The position numbers were made by a program, and so were the translations under genes. DNA of 64,000 bases, taken from assembly GCA_020846875.1 (NCBI GenBank), contig JADLDB010000072.1, forward strand, positions 1 to 64,000, written 5' to 3'. Position 1 is the first letter of the stretch. Each line of letters begins with the position of its first letter. The notes beneath the pieces are model-generated. The model ran no database searches. It worked only from the letters and a program-made list of their open reading frames with translations, and had not been told where the DNA came from. This stretch comes from Myxococcales bacterium (GTDB lineage: Bacteria; Myxococcota; Myxococcia; Myxococcales; Myxococcaceae). This document shows, piece by piece, positions 6,001-42,809 of the stretch.

Positions 6001-8694
6001 CCGGGCGAGCTCGAGCTGTACGAGGCGGGCGTGGAGGTGTGGCGCGCGCTGGGCCGCGTCGGCGACCTCGTGGCCCTGCACGAGCGCTTTGCCGCGGCCT
6101 CGGGAGGGCCCGCCGCTGCGCGCGCGCTGCTCGCGGCGGCCCAGGTGGTGGCCAGCGAGCTGCGCGACTCGCAGCGGGCCTTCGAGCTCAAGCAGGCGGC
6201 GCTGGCCGCGGATCCGGACGACCTCGCCGCGGTGGAAGCCGTGCTGGACGAGGCCCGCACCCGCGGCGAGGTGCCGGTGTACGAGGCCCAGCTGGCGAAG
6301 CTGGCGCAGGCCACCTTCGACGCCGCGCGCGCCGCGGAGCTCACCCTCGAGCTGGCGGCTTCCCAGGAGGCGCGGCGGGCCCTGGCCGAGGCCCGGGCGA
6401 CCCTGGAGCCCATCAAGGCGAAGGGCCCGTCTGCCGCCGGGTACACCCAGGCCCTGGAGACGCTGGAGCGGCTGGCGCGGGAGCAGGGCGACACCGCCGC
6501 CCTCGCCGAGCTGCAGCTCCTCTCGGCCGAGCTGTTGTCCGCCTCGGAGCGCGCGGCGCGGGTGCTGGAGGCGGCGCGCACCCTGCGGGCCTCCGGGCAG
6601 GTCGACCGAGCGCTGGTGCTGACGCGCGAGTCGCTGGCGTCACGGCCCTCCCGGGAAGGCCACGCGCTGCTGGTCGAGCTGGCGCGCGAGTCCGGGCGGA
6701 AGGACGAGCTGGCCCGGGCGCTGTCGCTGCACGCCCAGGACGTGGAGGGCACCGCGCGCGCCGAGCTGCTGCTGGACGCGGTGGACGCCTGGCGCGCGGC
6801 GAAGCAGCCGGGCGAGGCGCGCGACACCTTCGAGCGGGTGCTGAAGGACTTCCCTGGCCTGGTGGCGCCGGCCGACGCGGGCGCCCGCTTCCTCGAGCTG
6901 GGCGCCCCCGCCCGCGCGGTGGACGTGGCCTTCGCCCCGGCGATGGGGGCGGGCCAGCACGAGCGCGCGCTGATGCTGGCGGACGCGGCGGGCGACGCAG
7001 CGCGGGTGAAGGAAGCGCTGACGCCGCTGGCGCAGAAGGCGCCCGGCAGCGACTGGGGCCAGCGCTACACCGACGCGCTGCGCGCCGCGGGGGACGCGAA
7101 GGGGTTGTCGGCCTTCGCGCAGGCCATCGCCGCCGAGGCGCCGCAGCTCTCGCGGGCCCTCCTCAAGGAGCTGCTGATCGACTTCCAGTACACCGACGCG
7201 GTCAACGCCCTGGCGCAAGCGGGCGCGCTGGAAGAGGTGGTGCCCGCGGCGGTGGAGGAGCACCAGCCCGACGTGCTGCTGGCGCTGCTGCCCCGCGCCG
7301 GCGAGCTCGGCGCCGCCTCCCGCGAGGCGCTCCTCTCGGCGGTGGCGCACGCGGTGCCCGCCCGGCGCGAGGCGATGCTGCGGGCGCTGGCCGACTTGCG
7401 GCGAGAGGCCGGGCGGCTGCAGGACGCGGCGGCGGCGCTGCACGAGCTGTCCCAGTTGGAGGACGATCCCCGCGCCCGCGCGGCGCTGCACGTGGAGCGC
7501 GGCGAACTCTTCGAGCAGGTGGGCGACGTGGCGGCGGCCCAGGCGGCCTTCGAGCGCGCCCTGGTGGACGACGCCAACCAGACGGCGGCGGTGCGCGCGC
7601 TGGTGGAGCTGTACCGGACGGGCGCGCCGGATCGCTTCGTGGCGATGGTGGAGCGCCTCGGCGCGCTGGCGGGCGACGAGGCCACGGTGCCCTGGAAGGA
7701 GCCGCTGGTGGTCGCGCTCCAGTCGCTGGGCCGGCGGCGCGAGGCCTACACCCTGCTGGGCGAGCTGGAGGAGACGGACGCGCGCGTGCAGGAGCGCGCC
7801 GCGCTGGCCGAGCAACTGGGGCTCAAGGGGGAGGCCCTGGCGCTCCAGGAGAAGGTGGCGAAGACGCCCGCGGCGCGCGAGGCGATCCTCACCGGGTACC
7901 TCACCAGCGACCTGGTGCCTTTCGCGGTGCGCCTGGGCGAGCGCCTGGTGACGGAAGGCGCGCTGACGGCCCAGGCGACTCGACTGCTCGCGGAGCGGCT
8001 GGCGCCCACGCAGCAGGGCGCGGCGCTGGCGGCGAAGGTGTGGCCGGGCCTGCTGCGGCAGAACGTGGCCGACGCCGACGGGTGGACGTTGTTCGCCGAG
8101 GCGCTGCGGCACCTGGGCCGCGACGCGGCGGCCACCCTGGCGGACGGCTTCGGGGCGGTGCTGACGGCGACGAAGGGCCCCTCTCCGATGGCCCCGCAGC
8201 AGCGCCTCGAGCTCAAGGCGGCCGACTGGGCGGAGGTGCCGCCGGGCGCGGCCCAGGTGACGGAGGAGACGATGCCGCGGCTCTCCGCGGTGGTGTCCGA
8301 CGCGCTGGCGGGCTTCGGCGCCGCCGGCCTCAAGGTGGCGCTCAACCCCGCGGGCGGCGTGGAGGCCTACCTCACCGGCGACACCGTGGTGCTGGGCGCC
8401 GGCGCGCTGGCCGTCTTCGGCCAGGCCGAGCTGCCCTACCTGCTGGCCCTCGCCCTCTCCCTGTCCGAGGCGGGCGAGCAGCTCTGCCGGCCGGGCGAGG
8501 TGGACGGCTTCGAGGAGGCGGCGGCGGCGGCCTTCACCGCCTACCCGGCGTCGCTGGCGGTGGGGCGGGTGCTGGCCAGGCTGGACGCCTCGGTGCGCGG
8601 CGGCGATCCTCGGGCGGTAGATGAGCCAGCCGTCCTTCGACAGAGCGCGGCCTTCCGCGCGGTGGCCCTGCGTGCGCTCGACCAGCTCGAGTAG
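1..8694 (+). CDS. Giant TPR protein, 5' end outside window
   Basis: The frame is open from the first base, so the true start lies upstream; 2897 residues are visible, ending at the TAG at 8692. Almost all of it is a helical solenoid of tetratricopeptide-type units rich in Ala, Leu, Glu and Arg, with recurring pairs such as LxLAPxxPEALLxLG and AIxAYRRLA. No catalytic domain or membrane segment is visible. The last 190 or so residues are different: a Gly/Leu/Ala-rich segment (VVLGAGALAVFGQAELPYLL) that may form a separate C-terminal domain. Such proteins normally act as scaffolds; the partner is unknown. The upstream 5 kb use mainly GCC for Ala and CGC for Arg, the last 3 kb mainly GCG and CGG, so the gene may have grown by joining pieces. 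Family is sure, function is not. Confidence 0.9.
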   Translation, partial: ERLLTLLAPEPTTHELALDVAQSLARRREKSATAIWVEAVVRERRGEFARASERYLALCNLARKNQEEAGAFFAAEAAARASRDNAPQLAVKALHELLGLKPDHLPSLKALARASDQSKDRAGAIRAYRRLAALARDPADAADAHVQLARLCAQTEDDVAGARLHCEAALRLAPDHPEALLQLGDLCFRSGEWLRAIKALDRLREVAMGRHEVDRVGRANLLAGLVWETGLKQPENALLRYREAASLLPAEPRPLYLAARVAESLGKVQESVAGYQQAVELAGPAPEDEEVRKAAHASHHALARLLKAKLGEPARAREHLEAALALDPQDTVALDELLPYFRASGKAPELADACEKAAAVVEDPTRRAALWAEAGELYRGRLNQPDRAERLLSQALEADARNRLALEGMLALAESKRDGGQLTFCLKALAELTEAPKDRVRHYRRLAVAARDLAFDLDLAVFAYREILRVEPEDLPVLGELTALERRRADMAGLAWALEQRARVAEGLGDKRLSAAALRELSGVLDERLGRAGEALVALEKATRLFPEPNALLELATLSLRLERPVNARRALEDVLALLPKHAPPEKLAEVRARLGRACELLGDKEGAKENYALAFPLRRLDDDLAQRLEALYAEANQTRELSELWAARAQALLQAGRSHDAAPLFFKAAQRLMEAGDASGAMLRLTAALDASPSGAKAAEVLEAMAQLEQDRREPAEAARLLARRASLAEPGRDAARWLYRAAGLVRGTPREQPFLAQALEQDGTFLPARLRRAELTEDTVPREALVDFEAVLAAEPKDVDAAGVELDRTGLTRRAARAALKAGQYEAARRLFSKYAALKPDDTEALLELAKLHRRAGALEALVDLLGELWPRLDGAARASARREYAEGALSLGRTAAAIDALRAVLAETPGDDWAAGRLLTLLPLDEANTPERLELLARLVDAASGEAKAELLARRAELFRLAGDLVAARKDLFDAAQLTARPVPLYRSIAELARQSKDEAAELSAWRLVLERAGKDEALVQDAAQRLLELARGRTRADDRTRALEAWEALVALPLKAAERHEAWYGLAQMAKAVGSTRRAEEALLEASRQGPVPRRVDALLERAALLEAREAKDEAVEAFSAALALAPRHPLATGGLVRVLRAQADWEGLAEVLSTEAAQLPKAEAAPLFVELAALYLDQLDQPGPGEAALRRVVALDESNAAARRRLAGLLEARGELPEAVALLEDAAARLPAPEAAATLREAAALAHRADDDAGELKLLRIAHVLQPALGEHLARLADALYLHGAVKEALPLQKQVAEATGFEDTPELAERAWLRLADLAEQAEDFALAESALNRVVQERPLSAQAVERLAALVGRRDVKAAFELRARFAESLSRSARSAGLLLELAREAHQKHHDLELAHRLYARAAEASDAPLPVRQEAVALLREAGRTAELMVELHELAQLFVVDGHIDAALTAWDEETRLAEGAGRIDDALRTLTAMAELCEEEGWTDDAARQHLRRAELLRDSKLDLTGAAEALEKAWQLDAREDVAQQGMALARRRNDREAEIDWLERSLKHVAAPSARAQAFVQLARLHLGLPAEGPGDVEAAPLLAPDQAEAALKQALTLDAATPGAQALLLGLLERQGRVGDVAAHYEDAASRAPAGRERAALLLKAAELYKDRANRPHDAAAALLAARAADPDDLSLTARVADLLITLGRRQDAADFDALLLEGDPFHPSFARHAEYLEDSEDDVGLAALLSRRAERLGGAEAGQAWLAAAQAFRRAGALERAQLCETQAFEVAPQNTAAFEALLARAGDEPRRQAELLLLRSRAVPGEASALLKRRAQVLASLGEPLLSAEGWDDYLAQVPDDVDALEARAELAAQGGGPRASQPFDRKLVQLGAATLSPAVLLKLWLRLGQAALESNALKDAVDTFEAAVELDPDGLKGREALSSLSEVYARLHDASGQARTTLRLARGAKGAEAEALYRQALALAGSAQQSSEALEWLLDKHPGELELYEAGVEVWRALGRVGDLVALHERFAAASGGPAAARALLAAAQVVASELRDSQRAFELKQAALAADPDDLAAVEAVLDEARTRGEVPVYEAQLAKLAQATFDAARAAELTLELAASQEARRALAEARATLEPIKAKGPSAAGYTQALETLERLAREQGDTAALAELQLLSAELLSASERAARVLEAARTLRASGQVDRALVLTRESLASRPSREGHALLVELARESGRKDELARALSLHAQDVEGTARAELLLDAVDAWRAAKQPGEARDTFERVLKDFPGLVAPADAGARFLELGAPARAVDVAFAPAMGAGQHERALMLADAAGDAARVKEALTPLAQKAPGSDWGQRYTDALRAAGDAKGLSAFAQAIAAEAPQLSRALLKELLIDFQYTDAVNALAQAGALEEVVPAAVEEHQPDVLLALLPRAGELGAASREALLSAVAHAVPARREAMLRALADLRREAGRLQDAAAALHELSQLEDDPRARAALHVERGELFEQVGDVAAAQAAFERALVDDANQTAAVRALVELYRTGAPDRFVAMVERLGALAGDEATVPWKEPLVVALQSLGRRREAYTLLGELEETDARVQERAALAEQLGLKGEALALQEKVAKTPAAREAILTGYLTSDLVPFAVRLGERLVTEGALTAQATRLLAERLAPTQQGAALAAKVWPGLLRQNVADADGWTLFAEALRHLGRDAAATLADGFGAVLTATKGPSPMAPQQRLELKAADWAEVPPGAAQVTEETMPRLSAVVSDALAGFGAAGLKVALNPAGGVEAYLTGDTVVLGAGALAVFGQAELPYLLALALSLSEAGEQLCRPGEVDGFEEAAAAAFTAYPASLAVGRVLARLDASVRGGDPRAVDEPAVLRQSAAFRAVALRALDQLE

Positions 8695-29457: not shown

Positions 29458-29522
29458 ACTCACGGCTTCAGAATGAGACCGGGAGGCCGACGGGGCCGGG
29501 TGGCTTCGCTATGCTGCGCGGC

Positions 29523-31373
29523 ATGGTGCGCTCCTCCTTCACGCCTCGTCTCGTCGTCGCCGCCGTCTCGTTGATGCTCTCAGGCGCCTGCTTCACGCCG
29601 GTGGTGGAGGTTGAAGACGGCGGAGCGGGAGGCGGCGCGTCCGGCGGTGGCGGAGGTGCAAGCGGTGGGGGTGCGGGCGGTGGGGCGTTCGGCGGCGGGG
29701 CGGGGGGAGGCGCGGGTGGTGGCGCCTTCGGCGGCGGAGCGGGTGGCGGCTCCGGCTGCGCGGGCTGCTTCATCGCCGGCCTCTGTGTGAGTCCTCCCGA
29801 TAACGGCAGCGAGGCCCTCTGCGGCGCGGGCGGCGTGGTGTGCGATCAATGCAACGTGTCGGCGGGTGAGCGCTGCGTGAACTTCCGCTGCCAGGGCGGC
29901 TTCGGGGGGGGCGTCGGGGGCGGCTTCGGGGGCGGCGGCGGCTTCTTCGGTGGTGGGCCGGGCGGCGGTGCTGGCGGCGGCTTCTTCGGTGGTGGGCCGG
30001 GTGGCGGTGCTGGTGGCGGCTTCTTCGGCGGCGGGCCGGGCGGAGGTACAGGCGGCGGCTACGGCGGAGGCTTCGGCGGCGGTGGAGGTTGCGCCGGCTG
30101 CATGACGACGACGGGGGTGTGCATGTTGCCGCCGACCAACGAGACGGACCCCTTCTGTGGCCCTCCGGGAAGCATGTGCGTCACCTGCGATCCAGGACGC
30201 GGCGAGAAGTGCCTGGGGGGCTGGTGCGTCACGGCCTACGGCGGCGGCGCGGGAGGCGGCTACGGCGGCGGCTACGGAGGCGGCTACGGCGGCGGCTACG
30301 GCGGCGGCTACGGTGGCGGCTACGGCGGCGGCTACGGCGGCGGCTACGGCGGCGGCGGTGGCACCAACTGCAACAACGGCTGCTACACCGTCACCGGCCT
30401 CTGCGTTCAGCCGCCCTACAACGGCACCAGCTCGACCTGCGGTACGGGCGGCACCCTCTGCGACGTGTGTGACGTAGTGCAGGGCGAGGTGTGTCTCAAC
30501 TTCACGTGCGTCGGCGGTGTCGGCGGAGGCTATGGCGGCGGTGTCGGCGGCGGCTACGGCGGCGGGGGTGGCTCCGCGTGCAACGGCTGTTTCACTCCCA
30601 ACGGCGTCTGCATTCAGCCGCCCAACAACAACACCAACTCCTTCTGCGGCCCCGCCGGGGCCTTCTGTGATGCATGCGACGTGGCGTTCGGCGAGCAGTG
30701 CCTCAACTTCAGGTGCGTCGGCGGCTTCGGAGGCGGCGCGGGCGGCGGCTATGGCGGCGGTGGCGGCCCCCTCGGCGGCGGCGCGGGCGGAAGCTACGGC
30801 GGCGGCGGCGGGACCATGGCCTGTGGCCCGGGGACGTGCCGCGGCTGCTGCTCGGGGAACATCTGCGTGCCCTTCGCCAGCCAGACCAACCTCTTCTGCG
30901 GCTCCTTCGGCCAGCAGTGCTCTTCCTGCGTCACCGGCACCCAGTGCACCATGGGCGTCTGCGCTGGGGTGGTGGACGCCGGCCCGGCGCCGCAGGTCGG
31001 CCAGGCCTGCGCGGCTGACCTGGACTGCCGGCCGCCCAACAACGGCTTCTGCATCCCCGAGTCCGTCTTCGGGCAGCCCACCGGCTGGCCTGGCGGAGCC
31101 TGCACGCGCACCTGCGGGGGTAGCTCCAACCAGTGCCCGTCGAACTCCACCTGCATCAACTTCGACAGCTCCGGCCAGCCCCTGTGCATCCAGACTTGCC
31201 CGGCGCCGCGCCAGGGCCAGTCGACGTGCCGCAGCGGCTACATCTGCGAGGCGAACGTGATGGCGCCGGGTCCCGGCATCTGCATTCCGCGCTGCAGCAG
31301 CCCGGGCTTCACCTGCTGGCAGAACACCGTCTGCGACGTGCCTAGCGGGTACTGCGTACTCGTTGGCCCTTGA
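29523..31373 (+). CDS. Gly-rich lipoprotein with five Cys-rich modules
   Basis: The signal peptide (LVVAAVSLMLSGAC) ends in a lipobox, so the protein is probably a lipoprotein. The mature 590 or so residues alternate Gly-rich spacers, including a GGGY array, with five homologous modules whose first Cys are near residues 79, 190, 283, 353 and 434. Each follows C-x2-3-C-x5-6-C-x10-11-C-x6-C-x2-C-x5-7-C-x4-C, eight Cys in all, with a shared PPxN after the third Cys. The C-terminal 120 residues are a further Cys-rich domain of a different pattern. The modules probably fold as small disulfide knots strung on flexible spacers at the cell surface. I recognise no named family. ATG at 29511 is an alternative start. 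Confidence 0.85.
   Translation: MVRSSFTPRLVVAAVSLMLSGACFTPVVEVEDGGAGGGASGGGGGASGGGAGGGAFGGGAGGGAGGGAFGGGAGGGSGCAGCFIAGLCVSPPDNGSEALCGAGGVVCDQCNVSAGERCVNFRCQGGFGGGVGGGFGGGGGFFGGGPGGGAGGGFFGGGPGGGAGGGFFGGGPGGGTGGGYGGGFGGGGGCAGCMTTTGVCMLPPTNETDPFCGPPGSMCVTCDPGRGEKCLGGWCVTAYGGGAGGGYGGGYGGGYGGGYGGGYGGGYGGGYGGGYGGGGGTNCNNGCYTVTGLCVQPPYNGTSSTCGTGGTLCDVCDVVQGEVCLNFTCVGGVGGGYGGGVGGGYGGGGGSACNGCFTPNGVCIQPPNNNTNSFCGPAGAFCDACDVAFGEQCLNFRCVGGFGGGAGGGYGGGGGPLGGGAGGSYGGGGGTMACGPGTCRGCCSGNICVPFASQTNLFCGSFGQQCSSCVTGTQCTMGVCAGVVDAGPAPQVGQACAADLDCRPPNNGFCIPESVFGQPTGWPGGACTRTCGGSSNQCPSNSTCINFDSSGQPLCIQTCPAPRQGQSTCRSGYICEANVMAPGPGICIPRCSSPGFTCWQNTVCDVPSGYCVLVGP
30240..30360. repeat. 12-base tandem array encoding GGGY
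   Basis: About eight head-to-tail copies of GGX-GGC-GGC-TAC follow one another with synonymous changes only at the first codon. The unit length keeps the reading frame, so slippage would alter spacer length without breaking the gene. Confidence 0.85.
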
Positions 31374-33067: not shown

Positions 33068-33979
33068 TCAAGGAGCCGGCACCCCGGCTCCAGGGACGCC
33101 GCCGGGCACTACCTCCACCTCGGTGCGCGCCCCCAGCCCGAAGATGAGGCCCACGGTGAGCGAGACGGCCCCCACCCCGGTCAGCCCGAGGAGGACGGCG
33201 GTGGTGGTGGGGTTGTTGCGTACGAGGAGGGCGGCGATCCCGCAGCTCAAGGCGGTGAGGACGCCCAGCGTCATGGCCGTGGCGGACCAGGCAACGCGTG
33301 AGACGCTCGCCGTCTTCACCTGGAGCTGGACAGACGTCGCGTCGGGGACGGTGAACTGCGGCGAGGCGAGAACGCCGGCCCCCACCACGAAGTAGCCCTC
33401 ACCCGGTTTCACCGGCACGTCGCACGGCTCGGTGCAGACGGTCGTGACTCCGGTGAGGTGGCTGGCGTGGCTGCCGCCCGCCGCCGTGCCCTGGAGGACG
33501 ACGCGGCGGACCTCCAGCGGGGGCGCGTCCGACTCCACCAGCAGGCGCGCCCGGCGCTCGGTGGGGAACAGGCCGGCGGGCGAGGTGGGCGGCGCCGGAG
33601 GCAGCGCGGGCGCCGGCGCGGGCGGCACCACCGGCGCAGGCCCCAGCGCGGCGGAGGGGTCGATGAGCAGCGCCACCACCAGCGTCACCTTGTCGTCCAG
33701 CGACGCGCAGGCGCTCTCGCCGCTCGTCACCTCGCGGGTGCCCAGCACCGTGCCCTGGGCGTCCACCAGCGAGAGGCGCGCACGCCACTGCTCCTCGAAG
33801 CGCTCCACCACGCCGTCCACCAGCACGGCGGGCTCGGCGCCGAACACCGGGCGGTGCAGCTTGTCCTCCACCGCGCGCGAGACGTCGGCCGCCTGGCGGC
33901 ACTCGGGAGGGGCGGCCCAGCGCAGGCCCCAGGTGGTGGGACCGGCGGCCAGGAGCAGGAGGAGCGACAGGCTGGTCAC
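33068..33979 (-). CDS. Envelope protein with C-terminal membrane segments
   Basis: The GTG at 33979 overlaps the upstream stop (GTGA), so this is the second gene of a coupled pair. It starts with a signal-like stretch (TSLSLLLLLAAGPTTWGLR), has a periplasmic domain with two Cys that may bridge (CRQA, SACAS), a Pro/Ala linker near 135-160, a beta domain with CTEPCDVPVKPGEGYFV, and two hydrophobic helices near the end (TAMTLGVLTALSCGIAALLV; TTAVLLGLTGVGAVSLTVGL). Family not recognised; the beta part with the GEGYFVVGAG segment resembles PEGA-like domains. Its operon is preceded by the motif shared with the ECF sigma gene, so it is a predicted ECF target. Confidence 0.75.
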   Translation of the reverse strand: MTSLSLLLLLAAGPTTWGLRWAAPPECRQAADVSRAVEDKLHRPVFGAEPAVLVDGVVERFEEQWRARLSLVDAQGTVLGTREVTSGESACASLDDKVTLVVALLIDPSAALGPAPVVPPAPAPALPPAPPTSPAGLFPTERRARLLVESDAPPLEVRRVVLQGTAAGGSHASHLTGVTTVCTEPCDVPVKPGEGYFVVGAGVLASPQFTVPDATSVQLQVKTASVSRVAWSATAMTLGVLTALSCGIAALLVRNNPTTTAVLLGLTGVGAVSLTVGLIFGLGARTEVEVVPGGVPGAGVPAP

Positions 33980-35604
33980 AGCGCGTGAGTCTGGCTCAAG
34001 TCGCCCCGGGGGGCGGCGGTTTCCGGCGTCGTGGGGACGACCGGCTGGAGCAATTCGTCCACCAGCGCGGGCGGCTCCCCGAGGAAGCGGGCCAGCGCCA
34101 GGCGCGCCTCGGGGTACGCGCGGGGATCGCCTCCGCCCAACAGGCAGCGCGCGGCGGCCTCCGGCGGTTGGACGCCCGGCGTGCAGAAGCTGTCCGCCCA
34201 CCAGCGGGGGAGGCGCGCGGACAATTCGTCGAAGAGGCGGCGGGCCTGACGATCCTCCCAGTCGTCCGCGGTGGGCACGCCGCTCTTCTGGGGCGTGAGG
34301 GCGGCGCGGGGATCGGTCACCTCGTGGGACACGCCGTCCTTCTCGGACGAGTCTTCCCAGGACAGCTCGAGCGCCCGCGCGGTCGCCGGCAGCGCGAGGG
34401 TGCAGGAGACGCGCGCGCGGTGGGCGGCTTGCTCCTTCTGCGCGGGGATGGTGGTGGACCGCCCCACGCTGCGCGTCTTCGTCACCGTCTTCGGCACGCT
34501 GCGGGTGGCGCTGCGGTAGTGGGTGACGGTCCGGGTGCCGGTGCAGGTGGTGTACTTCGAGCCGGAGTAGCAGCCGTAGGTGTACGACTCCGTGGTGGTG
34601 TACGGCTCCTGGTACGTCTCCGTCTGGTATTCGGTCGCGCTGTACGTCTCCGTCTCGGTCCAGCTCACGGTGAGGTCCATGGGCGTGGCGGTGAAGCGGC
34701 TGTCCAGGGTGGCCGTCACCCGGCCGGTCACTTCTCCGGCGGAACGGGGGTCGTGCCAGCCGCTGCGGGCGAAAGCGGCGCGGGCGGCGTCGCGCAGCTT
34801 GTCCGCGGCACTCGGGCCGGCACCGTGCACGGCGGACAAGTCGAGGCGCACGTCCTTCCTCGTCTCGGGGGCGAAGGGCACGCGCGGCGTGGGGGCGCCC
34901 AGGGCGGCACAGGCGCGCTCGGCGACGCGGGCGAGCCACGGCGAGTGGGCCACCTGGGCCAGCGCCAGACAGCGGCGGGCGCCGGCGGCGCGGACCTCCT
35001 TCGAGCGCGCCTGCACCACGTCGCCGAGGCCGGCCTGCTGGAGGGCGGGCGTGAGCGAGGTGAGCAGCTTTCCGGCGCTGAGCGGCTGGCCGACGGAGAG
35101 GAAGAAGTCGAGGCGCTCCCCGATGGCGGCGACCAGCACCCGGCGCGCGTCCACCAGCGCGGGCGAATCCGGGGGGCGCGGGGCTGCGCCGCCGTCTGCA
35201 GAGGACGCGGGCCACTCGGACCACCCTGCGCCGGGAGCGCCGCCGGCGGTCGTCCCCTGAGGGGGCGCGGGGGCCGGTGGGTCCAGGAAGCGCCGGGCGC
35301 GGGCGTAGGCGGCGAGCGCGTCGAAGAGTCGCCCCGCGCGGACGTCAGCGCCGACGGAGGCCACTTCCCGCTGCACCAGCGCCTCGGCGGTGCGTCGGGA
35401 GCCGGCCGTCGCCTCGGAATCGCCCGGCGCCTCCGCGAGGCGCTGGGCCCAGCTCTGCCACGCCGCCTCCAGGCGCCCGTCGCGCTCGGCCTGCCGCGCC
35501 TTCACGGTGTGGGCCGAGGTGCAGGCCGAGAGGACGGCGCACGCGACGAGGAGGCCGGCGCGCAGCCGACTGGACGTGGGTGACGGCGTCCCCGTCTCGG
35601 ACAT
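33976..35604 (-). CDS. Lipoprotein with Thr/Tyr-rich strand, predicted ECF target
   Basis: ATG at 35604 gives a lipoprotein signal (LLVACAVLSAC). Residues 30-260 are helical and TPR-like (AAWQSWAQRLAEAPGDSEAT). A beta-rich region follows, with a remarkable stretch at about 312-375: TETETYSATEYQTETYQEPY, then repeated Tyr-Thr pairs, a CYSGSKYTTC loop and TRTVTHYRSATRSVPKTV. The alternation suggests a long edge strand or ladder with Tyr and Thr facing opposite sides. The last 110 residues are again helical. No family recognised. Only eight bases separate the start codon from a 13-base motif that also precedes the ECF sigma gene, so this operon is probably under that sigma factor. Confidence 0.8.
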   Translation of the reverse strand: MSETGTPSPTSSRLRAGLLVACAVLSACTSAHTVKARQAERDGRLEAAWQSWAQRLAEAPGDSEATAGSRRTAEALVQREVASVGADVRAGRLFDALAAYARARRFLDPPAPAPPQGTTAGGAPGAGWSEWPASSADGGAAPRPPDSPALVDARRVLVAAIGERLDFFLSVGQPLSAGKLLTSLTPALQQAGLGDVVQARSKEVRAAGARRCLALAQVAHSPWLARVAERACAALGAPTPRVPFAPETRKDVRLDLSAVHGAGPSAADKLRDAARAAFARSGWHDPRSAGEVTGRVTATLDSRFTATPMDLTVSWTETETYSATEYQTETYQEPYTTTESYTYGCYSGSKYTTCTGTRTVTHYRSATRSVPKTVTKTRSVGRSTTIPAQKEQAAHRARVSCTLALPATARALELSWEDSSEKDGVSHEVTDPRAALTPQKSGVPTADDWEDRQARRLFDELSARLPRWWADSFCTPGVQPPEAAARCLLGGGDPRAYPEARLALARFLGEPPALVDELLQPVVPTTPETAAPRGDLSQTHAL

Positions 35605-35612
35605 GGGGTGTC

Positions 35613-35645
35613 TTCTCACACGAGACGACGCGTGCTGACCAGCGC
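35613..35645 (-). promoter_or_regulatory. Two-block ECF-type promoter motif, copy A
   Basis: Read on the minus strand this is GCGCTGGTCAG, nine variable bases, then TCTCGTGTGAGAA, ending eight bases before the ATG at 35604. The same blocks and spacing recur before the ECF sigma gene. The blocks fit a -35/-10 pair; the start point would then be at or next to the ATG. Confidence 0.6.
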
Positions 35646-35696
35646 CGCGCCACCTGCGTCCTCTCGCGAGCAACCCAGCGGGCGCGCGGCGGTCTC

Positions 35697-35716
35697 CTGC
35701 GGCTCGGGGGCCGCAG
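35697..35716. terminator. 7-base hairpin between ECF operon and its target
   Basis: CTGCGGC-TCGGGG-GCCGCAG forms a GC-rich stem-loop in the 274-base gap, 163 bases after the end of the ECF operon and upstream of promoter copy A. It may end transcription from the sigma operon. The rest of this gap shows nothing but a slightly AT-richer patch. Confidence 0.3.
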
Positions 35717-35878
35717 CCCGGCGGTGCGTGGAGACGCGAACTGGTTGGGCTTTGCCGGTCAGGACAAGCAATCCACGACGACCGCCCTGTGCCGTGCCAC
35801 CGCGAGCCGCTGTCCTCGACGACGAGGGCCGAGCACCTGGTAGGAAGTGTCGCGGCGAGCAGCTCCGACAACTGAAAG

Positions 35879-36760
35879 CTACTGCCGGAGCAGCGCTTCG
35901 AGGCGCACGAGGTGCGTCGACGTGGGCCACTTCTTCTTGAAGGCGTCCACGCGCGCCGCCGCCTCGTCGCGCCGGCCCAGCTTCACCAGCGCCTCGATGC
36001 GCAGCACGTCGCGCTCCTGCGCCAGCGAGCTATCCGGGAAGGACTTCTCGTGCTGCTCGAGCTGCCCCAGGGCGGCGGCGGAGCGCCCGGCGCGCACCTC
36101 CTCCATCGCGCTGGTGAGGAGGCCTACCTCGTCCGCCGGCGTCGTGGCCGGTGGAGCGGGCGGCGGCGGCGCGGGGGCGGAGGGCCTGGGCCTGGGCGTC
36201 GCCGGCGGCTGGACGGCGGCCGGCGCGGACGGCGGAGGCGGAGGCAGCTTTGGTGTCACCAGCGTGGGTGCTGGAGAAGGAGGAGGAGCTGGCGCCGCGG
36301 CGAGGGGGCCGCTCTGCTTCGCCTGTTGCCGCTCGAAGCTGCGCCCGCCCTGGAAGGCCACCGCGCCCGCCACCAGCGTGGACACCGCCGCGACGACGAC
36401 CAGCTTCGTGGCGCCCGCAGCGACGGCGCCGCCCGCGGCCGCAGAGGCGCCAGCCGCCGTTCCTCCTGCTGCGGAGCCTCCTGCCGCCGAGCCGCCCGCC
36501 GAGGTGCCGCCGTCTCCGGGGAAGCCGCCATCTCCCGGAGGCCCGCCGTCACCGGGAGGTCCACCGTCTCCCGGAGGTCCGCCATCGCCGGGCCCGCCGG
36601 AGCCTCCCCCACCAGGAGGCGTCCAGAAGAGCGGCCCCAGCGCGCCTTGAAGGGCGAGGAGCTGCGGGGCCGAGGGCTCGTCCAGCACCGCGCTCTCGGC
36701 GAAGAGGCGCCAGCCCTCGGGGCCGCCCTCTGCCAGCCATGGACGAAGGGTGTCGCTCAC
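35879..36760 (-). CDS. Single-pass membrane protein of ECF operon
   Basis: The GTG at 36760 overlaps the sigma-factor stop (GTGA). The first 48 residues could be a small cytoplasmic domain, followed by a Gly/Pro/Asp repeat of the unit GGPPGD, an Ala/Gly stretch, one membrane helix at about 118-136 (TKLVVVAAVSTLVAGAVAF), a Pro-rich linker, and a periplasmic helical pair at 205-290 that looks like TPR/YbgF (LGQLEQHEKSFPDSSLAQER; RRDEAAARVDAFKKKWP). The position and topology suit an anti-sigma factor or sensor for the ECF protein, although no zinc anti-sigma motif is present. Anti-sigma function is inference from operon position only. Confidence 0.8.
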   Translation of the reverse strand: MSDTLRPWLAEGGPEGWRLFAESAVLDEPSAPQLLALQGALGPLFWTPPGGGGSGGPGDGGPPGDGGPPGDGGPPGDGGFPGDGGTSAGGSAAGGSAAGGTAAGASAAAGGAVAAGATKLVVVAAVSTLVAGAVAFQGGRSFERQQAKQSGPLAAAPAPPPSPAPTLVTPKLPPPPPSAPAAVQPPATPRPRPSAPAPPPPAPPATTPADEVGLLTSAMEEVRAGRSAAALGQLEQHEKSFPDSSLAQERDVLRIEALVKLGRRDEAAARVDAFKKKWPTSTHLVRLEALLRQ

Positions 36761-37299
36761 GCGAGCACCTCCTTCCGGTGCTGGGCGATCAACGTCTCCA
36801 TCTGCTTGCGCGCCGCGTAGAGCCGCGCGTACGCCGTCTGCAGTGGGACACCGGCCGCCGCCGCCACCTCGTGCATCGACGCCTGCTCCAATTCGAACAG
36901 CACGAAGACGGTCCGCTTGTCCTCGTCGAGTTGATCGAGCATTCGGTCGAGCAGCGTGCGCGCCTGGCGCTGCGCCACCTCCCGCACCGCCGTCTCACCG
37001 CTGTTGGCGCGCTCGGGGCTCTCGTCCACCAGGCTCTCGCGCCGCACGTGGGCCCGCTTCCGGTAGTCCGCCGCCACCTTGAGGCAGATGCCGTACACCC
37101 ACGACTTCAGCGCCCCGGCCGTGGCGGTGGCGAGGCGCCGGTGGATGACGACGAAGACCTCCTGGGCCACGTCGGGCACGTCGGCCTCGCGCACGCCCAG
37201 TCGCTTGAGCGAGCGCCACACCAGCGACGCGTGCGCCTCGTACACCGCCGCGAAGGTGGGCGGGCCGGCCGAATCTGAAGGCGTCGCCGCCTCGGGCAT
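36757..37299 (-). CDS. ECF-family RNA polymerase sigma factor
   Basis: The 180-residue product has sigma region 2 (VYEAHASLVWRSLKRLGV; DVPDVAQEVFVVIHRRL; LKSWVYGICLKVAADYRKR) and region 4 (LDQLDEDKRTVFVLFELEQA; EVAAAAGVPLQTAYARLYAA), with no region 1.1 or 3, the ECF layout. The DVAQEVF segment is the -10 recognition helix area. ATG at 37299 is chosen since upstream residues do not resemble the family and because motif copy B ends seven bases before it. It is followed in overlap by a membrane protein that may hold it inactive. The same motif upstream of itself and of the operon at 35604 predicts positive autoregulation and a local regulon. Confidence 0.93.
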   Translation of the reverse strand: MPEAATPSDSAGPPTFAAVYEAHASLVWRSLKRLGVREADVPDVAQEVFVVIHRRLATATAGALKSWVYGICLKVAADYRKRAHVRRESLVDESPERANSGETAVREVAQRQARTLLDRMLDQLDEDKRTVFVLFELEQASMHEVAAAAGVPLQTAYARLYAARKQMETLIAQHRKEVLA

Positions 37300-37306
37300 G
37301 CGCGGT

Positions 37307-37339
37307 TTCTCACACGAGAAGCCGCCGTCTGGCCAGCGC
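37307..37339 (-). promoter_or_regulatory. Two-block ECF-type promoter motif, copy B
   Basis: On the minus strand: GCGCTGGCCAG, nine variable bases, TCTCGTGTGAGAA, ending seven bases before the sigma-factor ATG at 37299. Compared with copy A, 23 of 24 block positions match while the nine-base spacer does not. The 3' block with one more base is a dyad, TTCTC-GTGT-GAGAA, so a repressor-type site is also possible. Confidence 0.6.
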
Positions 37340-37413
37340 GCCGCGAGGGGCGGCCACCGGCCCAGGCTGCCCGCCTCGGGGCGAGTCGAAGCGAACACCT
37401 TCTCCCCTGCGCG

Positions 37414-38301
37414 TCAGCCGTGGCTCAAGACGACTTCGTCCGAGGCGGCGCGCGGCAGCCCGGCGCGCAAGCTGGAGGCCTGCGACCGCTGGAGCAGCCA
37501 GTGGGACAACCACACCGTCGTCTCCTCCCCCGGCTTGCCTTGCTTGTCGACGGTGGGCGTCACCCTCGTCGCGCAGAGGGTGGACGTCTCGCCGCAGCCG
37601 CAGGCGTGGAGATCCCACCGGACGAAGGGAGTGCCTGCGTGGGGCTCCCCCAGGGCGGACAGCGCCGCCACGTCGTCCCGCTCGGCCAGGGCGAGGACCG
37701 TCGCCTCGCCGTCGGCGGGAACGTCCGTCACCCGCACGCCCTTCGCCTGGCCGCACCAGCTCTCACAGGCCTCGCAGTACGGCGTGTCCACCGCCGCCAG
37801 CGCCAGGAAGGTGGGCAGCCCCACCAGGAGGAGGCCCTCCACCGCCCACAACGCCCAGAGGACGCCGCCGGTGGGAGTCGCGCCCTTGAGGCTCCAGGCG
37901 CCGTGCTGGTTCACCACGTTGATCACGTCCCACAGCGCCCAGGGCTGCAGCAGCAGCGCCAGGAAGCTCACGTCCACGTCGTCGCGGCGCAGCAGCGCGT
38001 AGCTCCACACCGCCCACTGCACGTAGAAGGTGACCAGCGCGACGAACAGCCCGAGCGCAAGCGCCACCATGCGGTTGCGCACCTTCCCCCGGTGGAGGAG
38101 CGCCGAGAGGCCCAGCCCCAGCAAGAGCCCCATCCCGCCGGTGAGGAGGAAGGTGACGGCGCCGACGATGGGCAGGTACAGGGTGATGTACGCGTAGGCG
38201 GTGGCGAGCAAGGCTCCCAGCAGAATCCCCAGCAGCGGGACGGTGACGAGCGCGTGGCCGGAGAAGCGGCCCGACGGAACGTAGGTGCGGACGGTGGACA
38301 T
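37414..38301 (-). CDS. Polytopic membrane protein with Cys-rich C-terminal domain
   Basis: The 295-residue product has about five membrane helices in the first 175 residues (LVTVPLLGILLGALLATAYA; MVALALGLFVALVTFYVQWA; WAVEGLLLVGLPTFLALAAV). After the last helix comes a soluble domain starting with CEACESWCG and including HACGCGETSTLC, which looks like a metal or disulfide site. The C-terminus ends in an amphipathic helix. No family recognised. It is transcribed in the same direction as the ECF operon, which starts 114 bases downstream with its own promoter motif, so it need not belong to it. Confidence 0.8.
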   Translation of the reverse strand: MSTVRTYVPSGRFSGHALVTVPLLGILLGALLATAYAYITLYLPIVGAVTFLLTGGMGLLLGLGLSALLHRGKVRNRMVALALGLFVALVTFYVQWAVWSYALLRRDDVDVSFLALLLQPWALWDVINVVNQHGAWSLKGATPTGGVLWALWAVEGLLLVGLPTFLALAAVDTPYCEACESWCGQAKGVRVTDVPADGEATVLALAERDDVAALSALGEPHAGTPFVRWDLHACGCGETSTLCATRVTPTVDKQGKPGEETTVWLSHWLLQRSQASSLRAGLPRAASDEVVLSHG

Positions 38302-39102: not shown

Positions 39103-40206
39103 TTACGGCTTCGGCTTGAGGCCGCGCTTCTCGCGGGCGGCGGCGAGCTGCTCCTGGGTCGCCTCGAGTTCCTCAGTCGCCTTCTTCATGGCGGCCTCGG
39201 CGGCCTCGAGCCGCTGGGGAGAGTCGGCGCTGCTCGCCTGGGCCCGCTCGAGCGCCTCGTCGGCGGTGTCGTACGCCTTGAGCGCCTTCGCGACGGCTGC
39301 CTCCAGGCGCGCCAGCTCCAGGTCGGTCAAGACGAGCTCCACCGGCTCCTCGCTGGGCTTGGGCTTGACGAGCACCTTCTTCTCCGTCGACCAGCCTTCC
39401 TTCGTGACGGCGACGGTGTACTTGCCCTTCGAGGAGAGCCAGAGGTCGACCGGGGTGACACCCGCGGGCTTGCCGTCCAGCGTCACCTCGGCGGCGGTGG
39501 GCTTCGAGGTGATGGAGACCCTCACCGAGGGGAGGAGCTTCGCGTCCAGCTTCTGCGCGCCCTTCTTCACCTTGAGCTTCCTGGTGAAGGTGTCGTGCTG
39601 CGGGAATGAGACGGCGAGCTCCACGGTGCCGGGAGCGGCCAGCACGTCGCCGGGCGTGGCGGCCAGCGCCGGCTCCCCATTCACCGTGACGGAGGCGTCG
39701 GGTGGATCGGACGTGACGTGAATGGTCACCGCGAGGCGCAGGGTGAAGGCCGCGGCCACCGTCTCGCCGGGCGCGGGCTCGAGCTCCTTCTTCTCGGGGA
39801 AGAAGCCGGCCTTCGACACTCCGAGGAGCTGCTTCCTTCCGGACGCTACCGGCACCTTCGCGGGGGTGGTGCCGGCGCTCTGGCCATCCAGGGTGATGTC
39901 GGCGCCGGGCGGCCGGGTGGACACGTCGGCGAAGGCGTCGCGCGGGGCCTCGCCGCCGTCCTCCGCGCCCAGACCGCCGTCCGTCGGTCCGCCGTCCGCG
40001 GCCGGGCCACCGTCCACATGCCCTCCGTCGACCAGCCCGCTGTCCGGCAGCGTGGCGGCGGCGCCACCGTCCAACGCGCCCGCGTCCGCCTTGGGGGCAG
40101 GGGGCTTCGGGCCGGGAGGGGCGGCCAACGGCACGGGCGCGTCCTCCGGGCAGCCGGCGAGGGCGAGCAGGCAGACGACTGCGAGAGCAGGAAGCGGCGT
40201 GCGCAT
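39103..40206 (-). CDS. PEGA-domain lipoprotein with coiled-coil tail
   Basis: The product has a lipoprotein signal (AVVCLLALAGC), an Asp/Gly/Pro-rich linker of about 70 residues, and three PEGA-type beta domains: STRPPGADITLDGQSAGTTP, TSDPPDASVTVNGEPALAAT and TSKPTAAEVTLDGKPAGVTP. A C-terminal coiled coil follows (LARLEAAVAKALKAYDTADE to TEELEATQEQLAAAREKRG). PEGA domains are structural surface modules, often in S-layer or envelope proteins. It ends with KPKP. It is followed by a gap of 117 bases to the next gene and preceded at 10 bases by the gene at 40217, so those two form an operon. Confidence 0.88.
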   Translation of the reverse strand: MRTPLPALAVVCLLALAGCPEDAPVPLAAPPGPKPPAPKADAGALDGGAAATLPDSGLVDGGHVDGGPAADGGPTDGGLGAEDGGEAPRDAFADVSTRPPGADITLDGQSAGTTPAKVPVASGRKQLLGVSKAGFFPEKKELEPAPGETVAAAFTLRLAVTIHVTSDPPDASVTVNGEPALAATPGDVLAAPGTVELAVSFPQHDTFTRKLKVKKGAQKLDAKLLPSVRVSITSKPTAAEVTLDGKPAGVTPVDLWLSSKGKYTVAVTKEGWSTEKKVLVKPKPSEEPVELVLTDLELARLEAAVAKALKAYDTADEALERAQASSADSPQRLEAAEAAMKKATEELEATQEQLAAAREKRGLKPKP

Positions 40207-41105: not shown

Positions 41106-42809
41106 ATGAACGAGCCTTCCGGCAACACGCTCGGCCTCAAGCCGTCCGAGCTCAAGCACCTGCGCAACACCTTCCGCCGCCGCGTCTCCCCGCAGGAGAT
41201 CGTCAGCGCCGAGCTGGCCCGGCATCTGACGCAGTTCTCCCGCGAGACGAACCGGCAGGTGGGCGTGCTGCTCTCGCGCAAGGGCGAGGTGGAGTACGTC
41301 GTCGTCGGCAACGCGCACCAGTTGGAGCTGCCCGACATCGGCCGCGCGCGCGCCGGGCAGGTCCGCCTGCGTGGCCTGCGGCTGGTGCACACGCACCTCA
41401 AGAGCGAGCCCCTCACCCGCGACGACCTGACCGACCTGGCGCTGCTGCGCCTCGACCTGGTGGCGGCGGTGGGGGTGCGGGACGACGGGCTGCCCGGCGT
41501 GCTGCACTGGGCGCACCTGCTGCCCCAGAACGCGGGCGGCGAGCTGTGGCGGACCGAGACCGTCGATGACGTGCGCGAGCAGCCGGACTTTTCGGCCACG
41601 GTGGAGGCGCTGGAGGACGAGCTGGCCCAGCAGTCCCAGGCGCGGCGGGTGTCGGGGAAGGAGCGCGCGGTGCTGATCGCCGTGTGCCTCGACGGCCGCC
41701 GGGCGGACAGCGAGGCGTCCCTCACCGAGATGAAGGAGCTGGCCCGCACCGCCGGGGTGGAGGTGGTGGACGCGCTGCTCCAGGTGCGCCGCTCGGCGGA
41801 TCCGAAGTACCTCATCGGCCGCGGCAAGCTGGACGAGCTCAACCTGCGCGCCATGCAGCAGCTCGCCGAGGTGCTGATCTTCGACCAGGAGCTGTCCCCC
41901 AGCCAGGCGCGGCACCTCGGCGAGGCCACCAGCCTGAAGGTGCTCGATCGCACCCAGCTCATCCTCGACATCTTCGCCCAGCGCGCCCAGTCGGGCGAAG
42001 GCAAGCTGCAGGTGGAGCTGGCGCAGCTCAAGTACCTCATGCCGCGGCTGGTGCAGGCCGACTCGTCGCTGTCCCGCCTCTCCGGCGGTGGCGGGGTGGG
42101 GGGGCGCGGGCCGGGCGAGACGAAGCTGGAGCTCGACCGCCGGCGGGTGCGCGATCGCGTCGCGCTGCTGGAGAAGAAGCTGGGGCGCCTGTCCACCGAG
42201 CGCCGCGTGCGCCGCCGCCAGCGCACCCGCCGGGAGCTGCCGGTCATCTCCATCGTCGGCTACACCAACGCCGGCAAGTCCACCCTGCTCAATGCGCTGA
42301 CGAAGTCGGACGTGCTGGCGGAGGACAAGCTGTTCGCCACGCTGGATCCGACCAGCCGGCGCCTGCGCTTCCCGCGCGAGCACGAGGTGATCATCACCGA
42401 CACGGTGGGCTTCATCCGCGATCTGCCGAAGGACCTGGTGGCCGCCTTCCGCGCCACCCTGGAGGAGCTGGAGGACGCCTCGCTGCTGCTGCACGTCATC
42501 GACGCGGCGGATCCGGCGCGCGACGCGCAGGTGGAGGCGGTGGAGAAGATCCTGGGGCAGTTGGAGCTCTCCGGGCGGCCGCGGCTGCTGGTGTGGAACA
42601 AGGCCGACCTCTTGCCGTCCGAGGAGGCGCTGGCCCTGGTGCGCGCGCGCGGCGGCGTAGCCTTGAGCGCGAAGAGCAGGGGAGGGCTGGGGGAGCTGCT
42701 GCTCAAGTGCGAGGACACGCTCTTCGCCGAAGGTGATCGCGAGCACGCCGAGGCGCTGCGCCTCACCCTTGCCCCCGCTGGAGAAGTCCGCGGCGAAGAC
42801 GGCGCCTGA
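41106..42809 (+). CDS. hflX: Ribosome-associated GTPase HflX, long form
   Basis: HflX binds the 50S subunit and rescues stalled ribosomes. The canonical part starts near residue 187 (RAVLIAVCLDGRRADSEASL) and has the family's glycine-rich segment SGGGGVGGRGPGETKLELDR. It is followed by the G domain: G1 GYTNAGKST near 385, G3 DTVGF, G4 NKAD and G5 SAK. The preceding 180 residues are an N-terminal extension absent from the E. coli form; it contains GEVEYVVVGNAHQLELPDIG and HTHLKSEPLTRDDLTDLALL, which resembles a small alpha/beta domain with a possible JAB/MPN-like HxH feature, though no full metal site is evident. Length is 567 residues against about 430. Confidence 0.95.
   Translation: MNEPSGNTLGLKPSELKHLRNTFRRRVSPQEIVSAELARHLTQFSRETNRQVGVLLSRKGEVEYVVVGNAHQLELPDIGRARAGQVRLRGLRLVHTHLKSEPLTRDDLTDLALLRLDLVAAVGVRDDGLPGVLHWAHLLPQNAGGELWRTETVDDVREQPDFSATVEALEDELAQQSQARRVSGKERAVLIAVCLDGRRADSEASLTEMKELARTAGVEVVDALLQVRRSADPKYLIGRGKLDELNLRAMQQLAEVLIFDQELSPSQARHLGEATSLKVLDRTQLILDIFAQRAQSGEGKLQVELAQLKYLMPRLVQADSSLSRLSGGGGVGGRGPGETKLELDRRRVRDRVALLEKKLGRLSTERRVRRRQRTRRELPVISIVGYTNAGKSTLLNALTKSDVLAEDKLFATLDPTSRRLRFPREHEVIITDTVGFIRDLPKDLVAAFRATLEELEDASLLLHVIDAADPARDAQVEAVEKILGQLELSGRPRLLVWNKADLLPSEEALALVRARGGVALSAKSRGGLGELLLKCEDTLFAEGDREHAEALRLTLAPAGEVRGEDGA

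Follow-up and report, generated by a model that had tools for sequence, protein, structure and literature searches.

We wanted to know whether the gene for an ECF sigma factor and a neighbouring envelope operon in the genome of a Myxococcales bacterium share one kind of promoter and, if so, whether the sigma factor itself reads it. Both lie on the minus strand of the stretch of DNA that was analysed here, which comprises 64,000 nucleotides of contig JADLDB010000072.1 and is referred to below as the window. The original prediction held that a motif of two blocks, repeated before the sigma gene and before the operon, is what an autoregulated ECF sigma factor and its target promoter look like. 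As listed in Table 1, both copies of the motif, GCGCTGGYCAG-N9-TCTCGTGTGAGAA on the minus strand, were found where the original prediction had placed them and at the distances from the two start codons that it had given. Its count of matching letters also held, as 23 of the 24 block positions are identical between the copies, whereas the nine-base spacer, equal in length, agrees at 4/9 positions. When the window was searched with up to three mismatches allowed, we detected these 2 sites, where shuffled sequences gave an expectation of 0 (n = 100), which agrees with the earlier impression, gained by eye, that the window holds no third copy. Further, in the whole genome (7.06 Mb), the 13-mer block has 2 exact copies, and the two-block pattern with up to three mismatches occurs at just those 2 sites, the searches for a third copy being done by pattern and by BLAST. 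The sites are thus few and each sits just before a start codon, as the original prediction had anticipated. We conclude that the two-block repeat is far beyond chance.

Table 1. Features of the sigma factor locus, in positions of the window
Feature	Position	Strand	Basis or remark
Two-block element, copy 1	37307..37339	(-)	7 nt before the sigma ATG at 37299
Two-block element, copy 2	35613..35645	(-)	8 nt before the lipoprotein ATG at 35604
~65-nt segment, copy 1	37276..37339	(-)	the two blocks plus the ATG and initial 8 codons of the sigma gene; BLAST and alignment
~65-nt segment, copy 2	35581..35645	(-)	the two blocks plus the ATG and initial 8 codons of the lipoprotein gene
ECF sigma factor P0001, 180 aa, ATG start	36757..37299	(-)	Pfam, TIGR02937, phmmer
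Putative anti-sigma factor P0003, 293 aa, starting with a GTG that overlaps the sigma stop	35879..36760	(-)	topology, gene position
Putative lipoprotein P0002, 542 aa, signal then LSAC, first gene of the second operon	33976..35604	(-)	sequence
Putative membrane/periplasmic protein P0004, 303 aa, starting with a GTG that overlaps the lipoprotein stop	33068..33979	(-)	co-occurrence with the sigma gene

The assignment of P0001 as an ECF sigma factor is backed by matches to Sigma70_r4_2 (2.5e-9) and Sigma70_r2 (2e-6) in Pfam and to TIGR02937 (6.7e-16), by phmmer matches to the solved ECF sigma factors SigE and RpoE, and by a domain content of sigma2 and sigma4 only, as is typical of the class. Its partner, P0003, was earlier named as a possible anti-sigma factor. 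The layout of this protein speaks for that role, consisting of two short N-terminal helices, a Gly-rich linker, one transmembrane (TM) helix, a Pro-rich stretch, and a TPR-like C-terminal domain, which, together with a gene adjoining that of the sigma factor, is the topology of a membrane anti-sigma factor, with the reservation that the N-terminal helices are of low confidence and the orientation is presumed. The AlphaFold model places helices at residues 6-24, 31-40, and 118-148 and the TPR part at 208-292 (pLDDT above 90), and the N-terminal segment is conserved among orthologues. However, no anti-sigma domain was recognised in P0003 by comparison with Pfam and NCBIfam, and the Pfam matches seen were weak ones to YfiO/TPR_14. 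To judge by its topology and the model, P0003 is likely an anti-sigma factor. The lipoprotein P0002 had no match in Pfam or NCBIfam, and its model (pLDDT 55) was too poor for fold searching; we note that one of its stretches is rich in Tyr and Thr (SWTETETYSATEYQTETYQEPYTTTESYTYG...) and predicted to form long beta strands, and no family was matched. Elsewhere in the window lie a cysteine-containing protein of 620 aa, in which Cys-rich units are separated by long GGG-A/Y-GGG repeats and which has no Pfam match (29511-31373), and, near the module, a PEGA-domain protein with three PEGA stretches (39103-40206) and an HflX-like GTPase (41106-42809).

The likeness between the two sites is not confined to the blocks. 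A BLAST comparison of the sigma upstream region with its own genome returned 35581-35645, at the start of the lipoprotein gene, as the sole match above noise (~78% identity, E 2.3e-7; next best match, E 0.035), and 20 of the first 24 coding nucleotides past the ATG are identical between the sigma and lipoprotein genes. Because the element lies 7 nt from one ATG and 8 nt from the other, its reading frame differs between the two genes, so that the likeness is one at the DNA level, reflecting constraint on DNA or RNA, and not a conserved coding sequence; a conserved coding extension, considered as a candidate, is ruled out on this ground. That the shared segment reaches into the coding region argues for duplication rather than for two independently kept promoter blocks, and, on the simplest history, the ~65-nt likeness looks like a duplicated promoter-plus-start segment with selection acting on the blocks. 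Neither the likeness past the ATG nor the dyad symmetry described below formed part of the original prediction. Further, P0002 carries a 12-residue N-terminal extension ahead of its signal, and the lipoprotein homologues in the nearest relatives, G092 and G095, appear to begin right at the signal sequence. The extension is consistent with the lipoprotein gene having received the 5' end of the sigma gene, presumably in that direction.

A neutral leftover of local duplication (e.g. tandem duplication with differential loss that left one 5' end fused to both genes) would leave similar traces with no special shared regulation of the two operons. It would account for a likeness that crosses the ATG and takes in eight codons, and the N-terminal extension of P0002 is as expected from a pasted sigma 5' end. 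The locus has also been rearranged, as can be seen from G092 and G095, in which the lipoprotein homologue lies directly upstream of the sigma gene in one operon. However, divergence between the copies is uneven, as it would be under selection: the blocks are almost unchanged, the spacer is not (Fisher p 0.003, on small counts), and the stretch from block to ATG shows little agreement. We therefore regard a purely neutral origin as distinctly unlikely and favour a duplicated promoter on which selection has acted.

The genes themselves, as opposed to the element, form a module that is kept across relatives. Orthologues of P0001 were found in 18 other genomes of the family (52-63% identity), in nearly all cases with a partner gene of this kind downstream. 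Among 96 family genomes, a strong sigma orthologue occurs in 19 and a strong P0004 orthologue in 20, with 18 genomes sharing both, 1 and 2 having one alone, and 75 having neither (Fisher p 3e-16, a value that ignores phylogeny). The functional link between the sigma factor and the envelope operon is thus well supported without recourse to the motif; the sigma factor, its partner P0003, and the membrane protein P0004 are a conserved gene module, and co-regulation of genes that co-occur in this way makes sense. We note that, in one relative (G002), the sigma and partner genes are cleanly missing while P0004 and both flanks are colinear: positions 6748-8129 of locus L055 collapse to 2557-2482 in the corresponding locus L132 (G002:C1:442000-449000), a natural deletion. 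The genome under study also has two paralogous modules of sigma factor and Gly-rich TM-TPR partner, on contigs C92 (L092) and C161 (L094), and the partner protein of the former contains a very long Gly/Ala-rich repeat.

The element does not share this conservation. With up to three mismatches allowed, it was found in 0/95 other genomes of the family and 0/144 other genomes of the order. Using a gap-tolerant score, we detected nothing above chance in the upstream regions of the 18 sigma orthologues, those of the P0004 and P0002 homologues scored within chance as well, and no motif common to the sigma and P0004 upstream regions of each relative rose above background. The expectation that the element would be conserved before orthologous sigma genes thus failed at 18/18 of them, and absence from relatives carrying the same sigma gene is the very outcome that the original prediction had named as speaking against itself. 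The element is not part of the conserved module; it is lineage-specific and found in this one genome. As it is absent where the same sigma gene is present, conservation does not back the ECF-promoter reading and leaves the possibility of a lineage-specific promoter. The helix of the sigma orthologues that reads the -35 element, P(L/V)QTAYARLYAAR, is almost unchanged. The loop between regions 2.3 and 2.4, the part of ECF sigma factors that reads the -10 element, is LATATA-GALKSW in P0001 and of the EFDGRSS type in nearly all orthologues, and a changed -10 element is therefore conceivable.

Other sequences precede these genes in relatives. In g3 and g19 relatives, a TAGAGT-like box lies ahead of the sigma gene instead. 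In g3, g7, and g8 relatives, GCGTGGTTTAAGSCCGCGCATG is found before P0004, and similar elements lie a very short distance from the P0004 ATG in a number of genera (L054-L058, L053, and L120), where they are perhaps promoters with a very short leader. We considered GCGTGGTTTAAGSCCGCGCATG as a CGTG-containing -10 element common to the relatives; as it persists in G002, from which the genes for sigma factor and partner have been lost, it probably represents another promoter, and expression of P0004 in g3 relatives is probably independent of the sigma factor. Ahead of the P0004 gene of G092 and G095, the two nearest relatives, there is a faint GCGTTGG...CGTG that may be an older form of the promoter studied here. 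This is suggestive only, since GCGYTGG-N15-17-CGTG in G095 was a post hoc find and about 10 such matches are present per 737 kb of strand.

Absence of the motif next to a sigma gene whose -35 helix is shared is also what would be seen if the blocks were operator half-sites of a separate DNA-binding regulator, the sigma gene being a passenger of the regulon and not the reader. Both blocks of both copies indeed contain inverted repeats (CTGNNCAG in block 1 and TCTC-N4-GAGA in block 2). This evidence is weak: perfect 4+4 inverted repeats with a loop of 4 occur at ~0.7% of positions in the window and 3+3 repeats with a loop of 2 at ~2.6%, and we estimate the chance of the combined symmetry at ~1-5% when several arm and loop sizes are allowed. 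Further, the genome has no third site, which would be unusual for a distant regulator, and no such regulator gene was seen among the genes adjoining the locus. Recognition by a separate regulator is, in our view, somewhat unlikely, and we return to the sigma factor as the candidate reader.

If the element is an ECF promoter, it should resemble those described. Classical ECF promoters have AAC in the -35 box and CGT in the -10 box (PMC8103513); their spacer is rigid at ~17 bp (PMC6411747), and about 55% of ECF sigma genes are autoregulated (PMC8103513). Later ECF groups vary with respect to AAC. Block 2 contains CGT (TCTCGTG), 15-17 bp from GCGCTG, CGCTGG, or GCTGGY, depending on which of these is taken as the -35 element, in agreement with the 16-17 bp expected. 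However, block 1, GCGCTGGYCAG, contains no AAC in either copy. When the region-4 helix of P0001, PLQTAYARLYAAR, was aligned with that of E. coli RpoE, PVGTVRSRIFRAR, the residues differed at the positions that we take to contact the -35 element in RpoE. As P0001 is without contact residues of the RpoE type, AAC need not be expected in its promoters. The claim of an autoregulated ECF factor with its target promoter therefore stands in part: the block spacing, the CGT, the two sites beside the ATGs, and the conserved genes agree with it, but the missing AAC, the lack of conservation, and a likeness that continues into coding sequence do not.

Other kinds of signal explained the element less well. 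No sigma-70-type promoter was found when one was sought in 35300-37500. A sigma-54 (-24/-12) promoter is suggested by GG-N10-GC in copy 1 (CTGG-CCAGACGGCG-GC), but in copy 2 the GC that such a promoter requires is replaced by TC and the -12 position would fall in the non-conserved spacer, and we give this reading almost no credence. Finally, TCTC-GTGT-GAGA might form a hairpin in the mRNA that covers the start region and controls translation, and some folds do show the block self-paired immediately ahead of the start codon. Folding, however, was no better than that of shuffled sequence (z -0.7 to +0.7), no Rfam family matched, and block 1 would be left unexplained, making an RNA hairpin very improbable.

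On balance, we judge the chances to be about even that a lineage-specific duplicated promoter co-expresses both operons and is, most likely, read by P0001 itself. In favour, we counted the fact that the 7.06-Mb genome has no more than two copies, each followed by an ATG after 7-8 nt, and the uniqueness of the 65-nt match; against it, we counted the missing AAC, the absence from relatives despite a near-identical helix, a dyad symmetry such as a dimeric DNA-binding protein would prefer, and the probable independence of P0004 expression from the sigma factor in g3 relatives. We infer the following sequence of events. A ~65-nt segment with promoter, start codon, and first eight codons would have been duplicated within the locus, so that one kind of promoter would drive both the sigma/anti-sigma pair and the operon of lipoprotein and membrane protein. 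GCGCTGG in block 1 would serve as the -35 element and CGT in block 2 as the -10 element, with a spacer of 15-17 bp; by this geometry, transcription would start within about 10 nt of each ATG and yield a very short leader. P0003 would hold the sigma factor at the membrane until a presumed envelope signal frees it, and the freed sigma factor, most likely the reader of both promoters, would increase expression of its own operon and of a single output operon next to it. A more specific proposal, that region 4 of this ECF sigma factor reads a non-AAC -35 element (GCGYTGG) and that a regulon with a single target arose recently by copying of the promoter-plus-start segment onto the neighbouring operon, giving near-leaderless transcripts, seems to us unlikely as a whole. 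If true, it would be a clear example of a sigma factor gaining a target via local duplication of its own promoter and start codon, within a gene module that is conserved but regulated differently from genus to genus, and it would give a large, uncharacterised group of myxobacterial ECF factors a testable -35 specificity.

The kind of circuit proposed is well known, and this would be an ordinary local one, with a mechanism that is plausible but unproven. It resembles the autoregulatory circuits of ECF (group IV) sigma factors of the E. coli RpoE/RseA type in the two-domain sigma factor, the overlapping gene for a one-TM partner, a putative promoter that the sigma gene has in common with an adjacent envelope operon, the CGT in the -10 block, and the spacer length. 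Unlike that type, it has no AAC in the -35 block and a motif not conserved among orthologues, and P0003 has no recognisable anti-sigma domain and an outer part that is TPR-like. FecI/FecR-like systems are similar in that the sigma gene precedes one for a one-TM protein whose N-terminal part is short and which has a periplasmic part as well. However, scans of P0003 and of two paralogous partners showed no FecR domain, and the general description of FecI-like sigma genes is that they lack autoregulation (PMC8103513, PMC3817407). Although in the paralogous modules on C92 and C161 the sigma gene follows its upstream gene with almost no gap and the duplicated segment is found only at the present locus, these uncharacterised Myxococcota modules of sigma factor and Gly/Pro-rich TM-TPR protein share both its gene order and the architecture of its partner.
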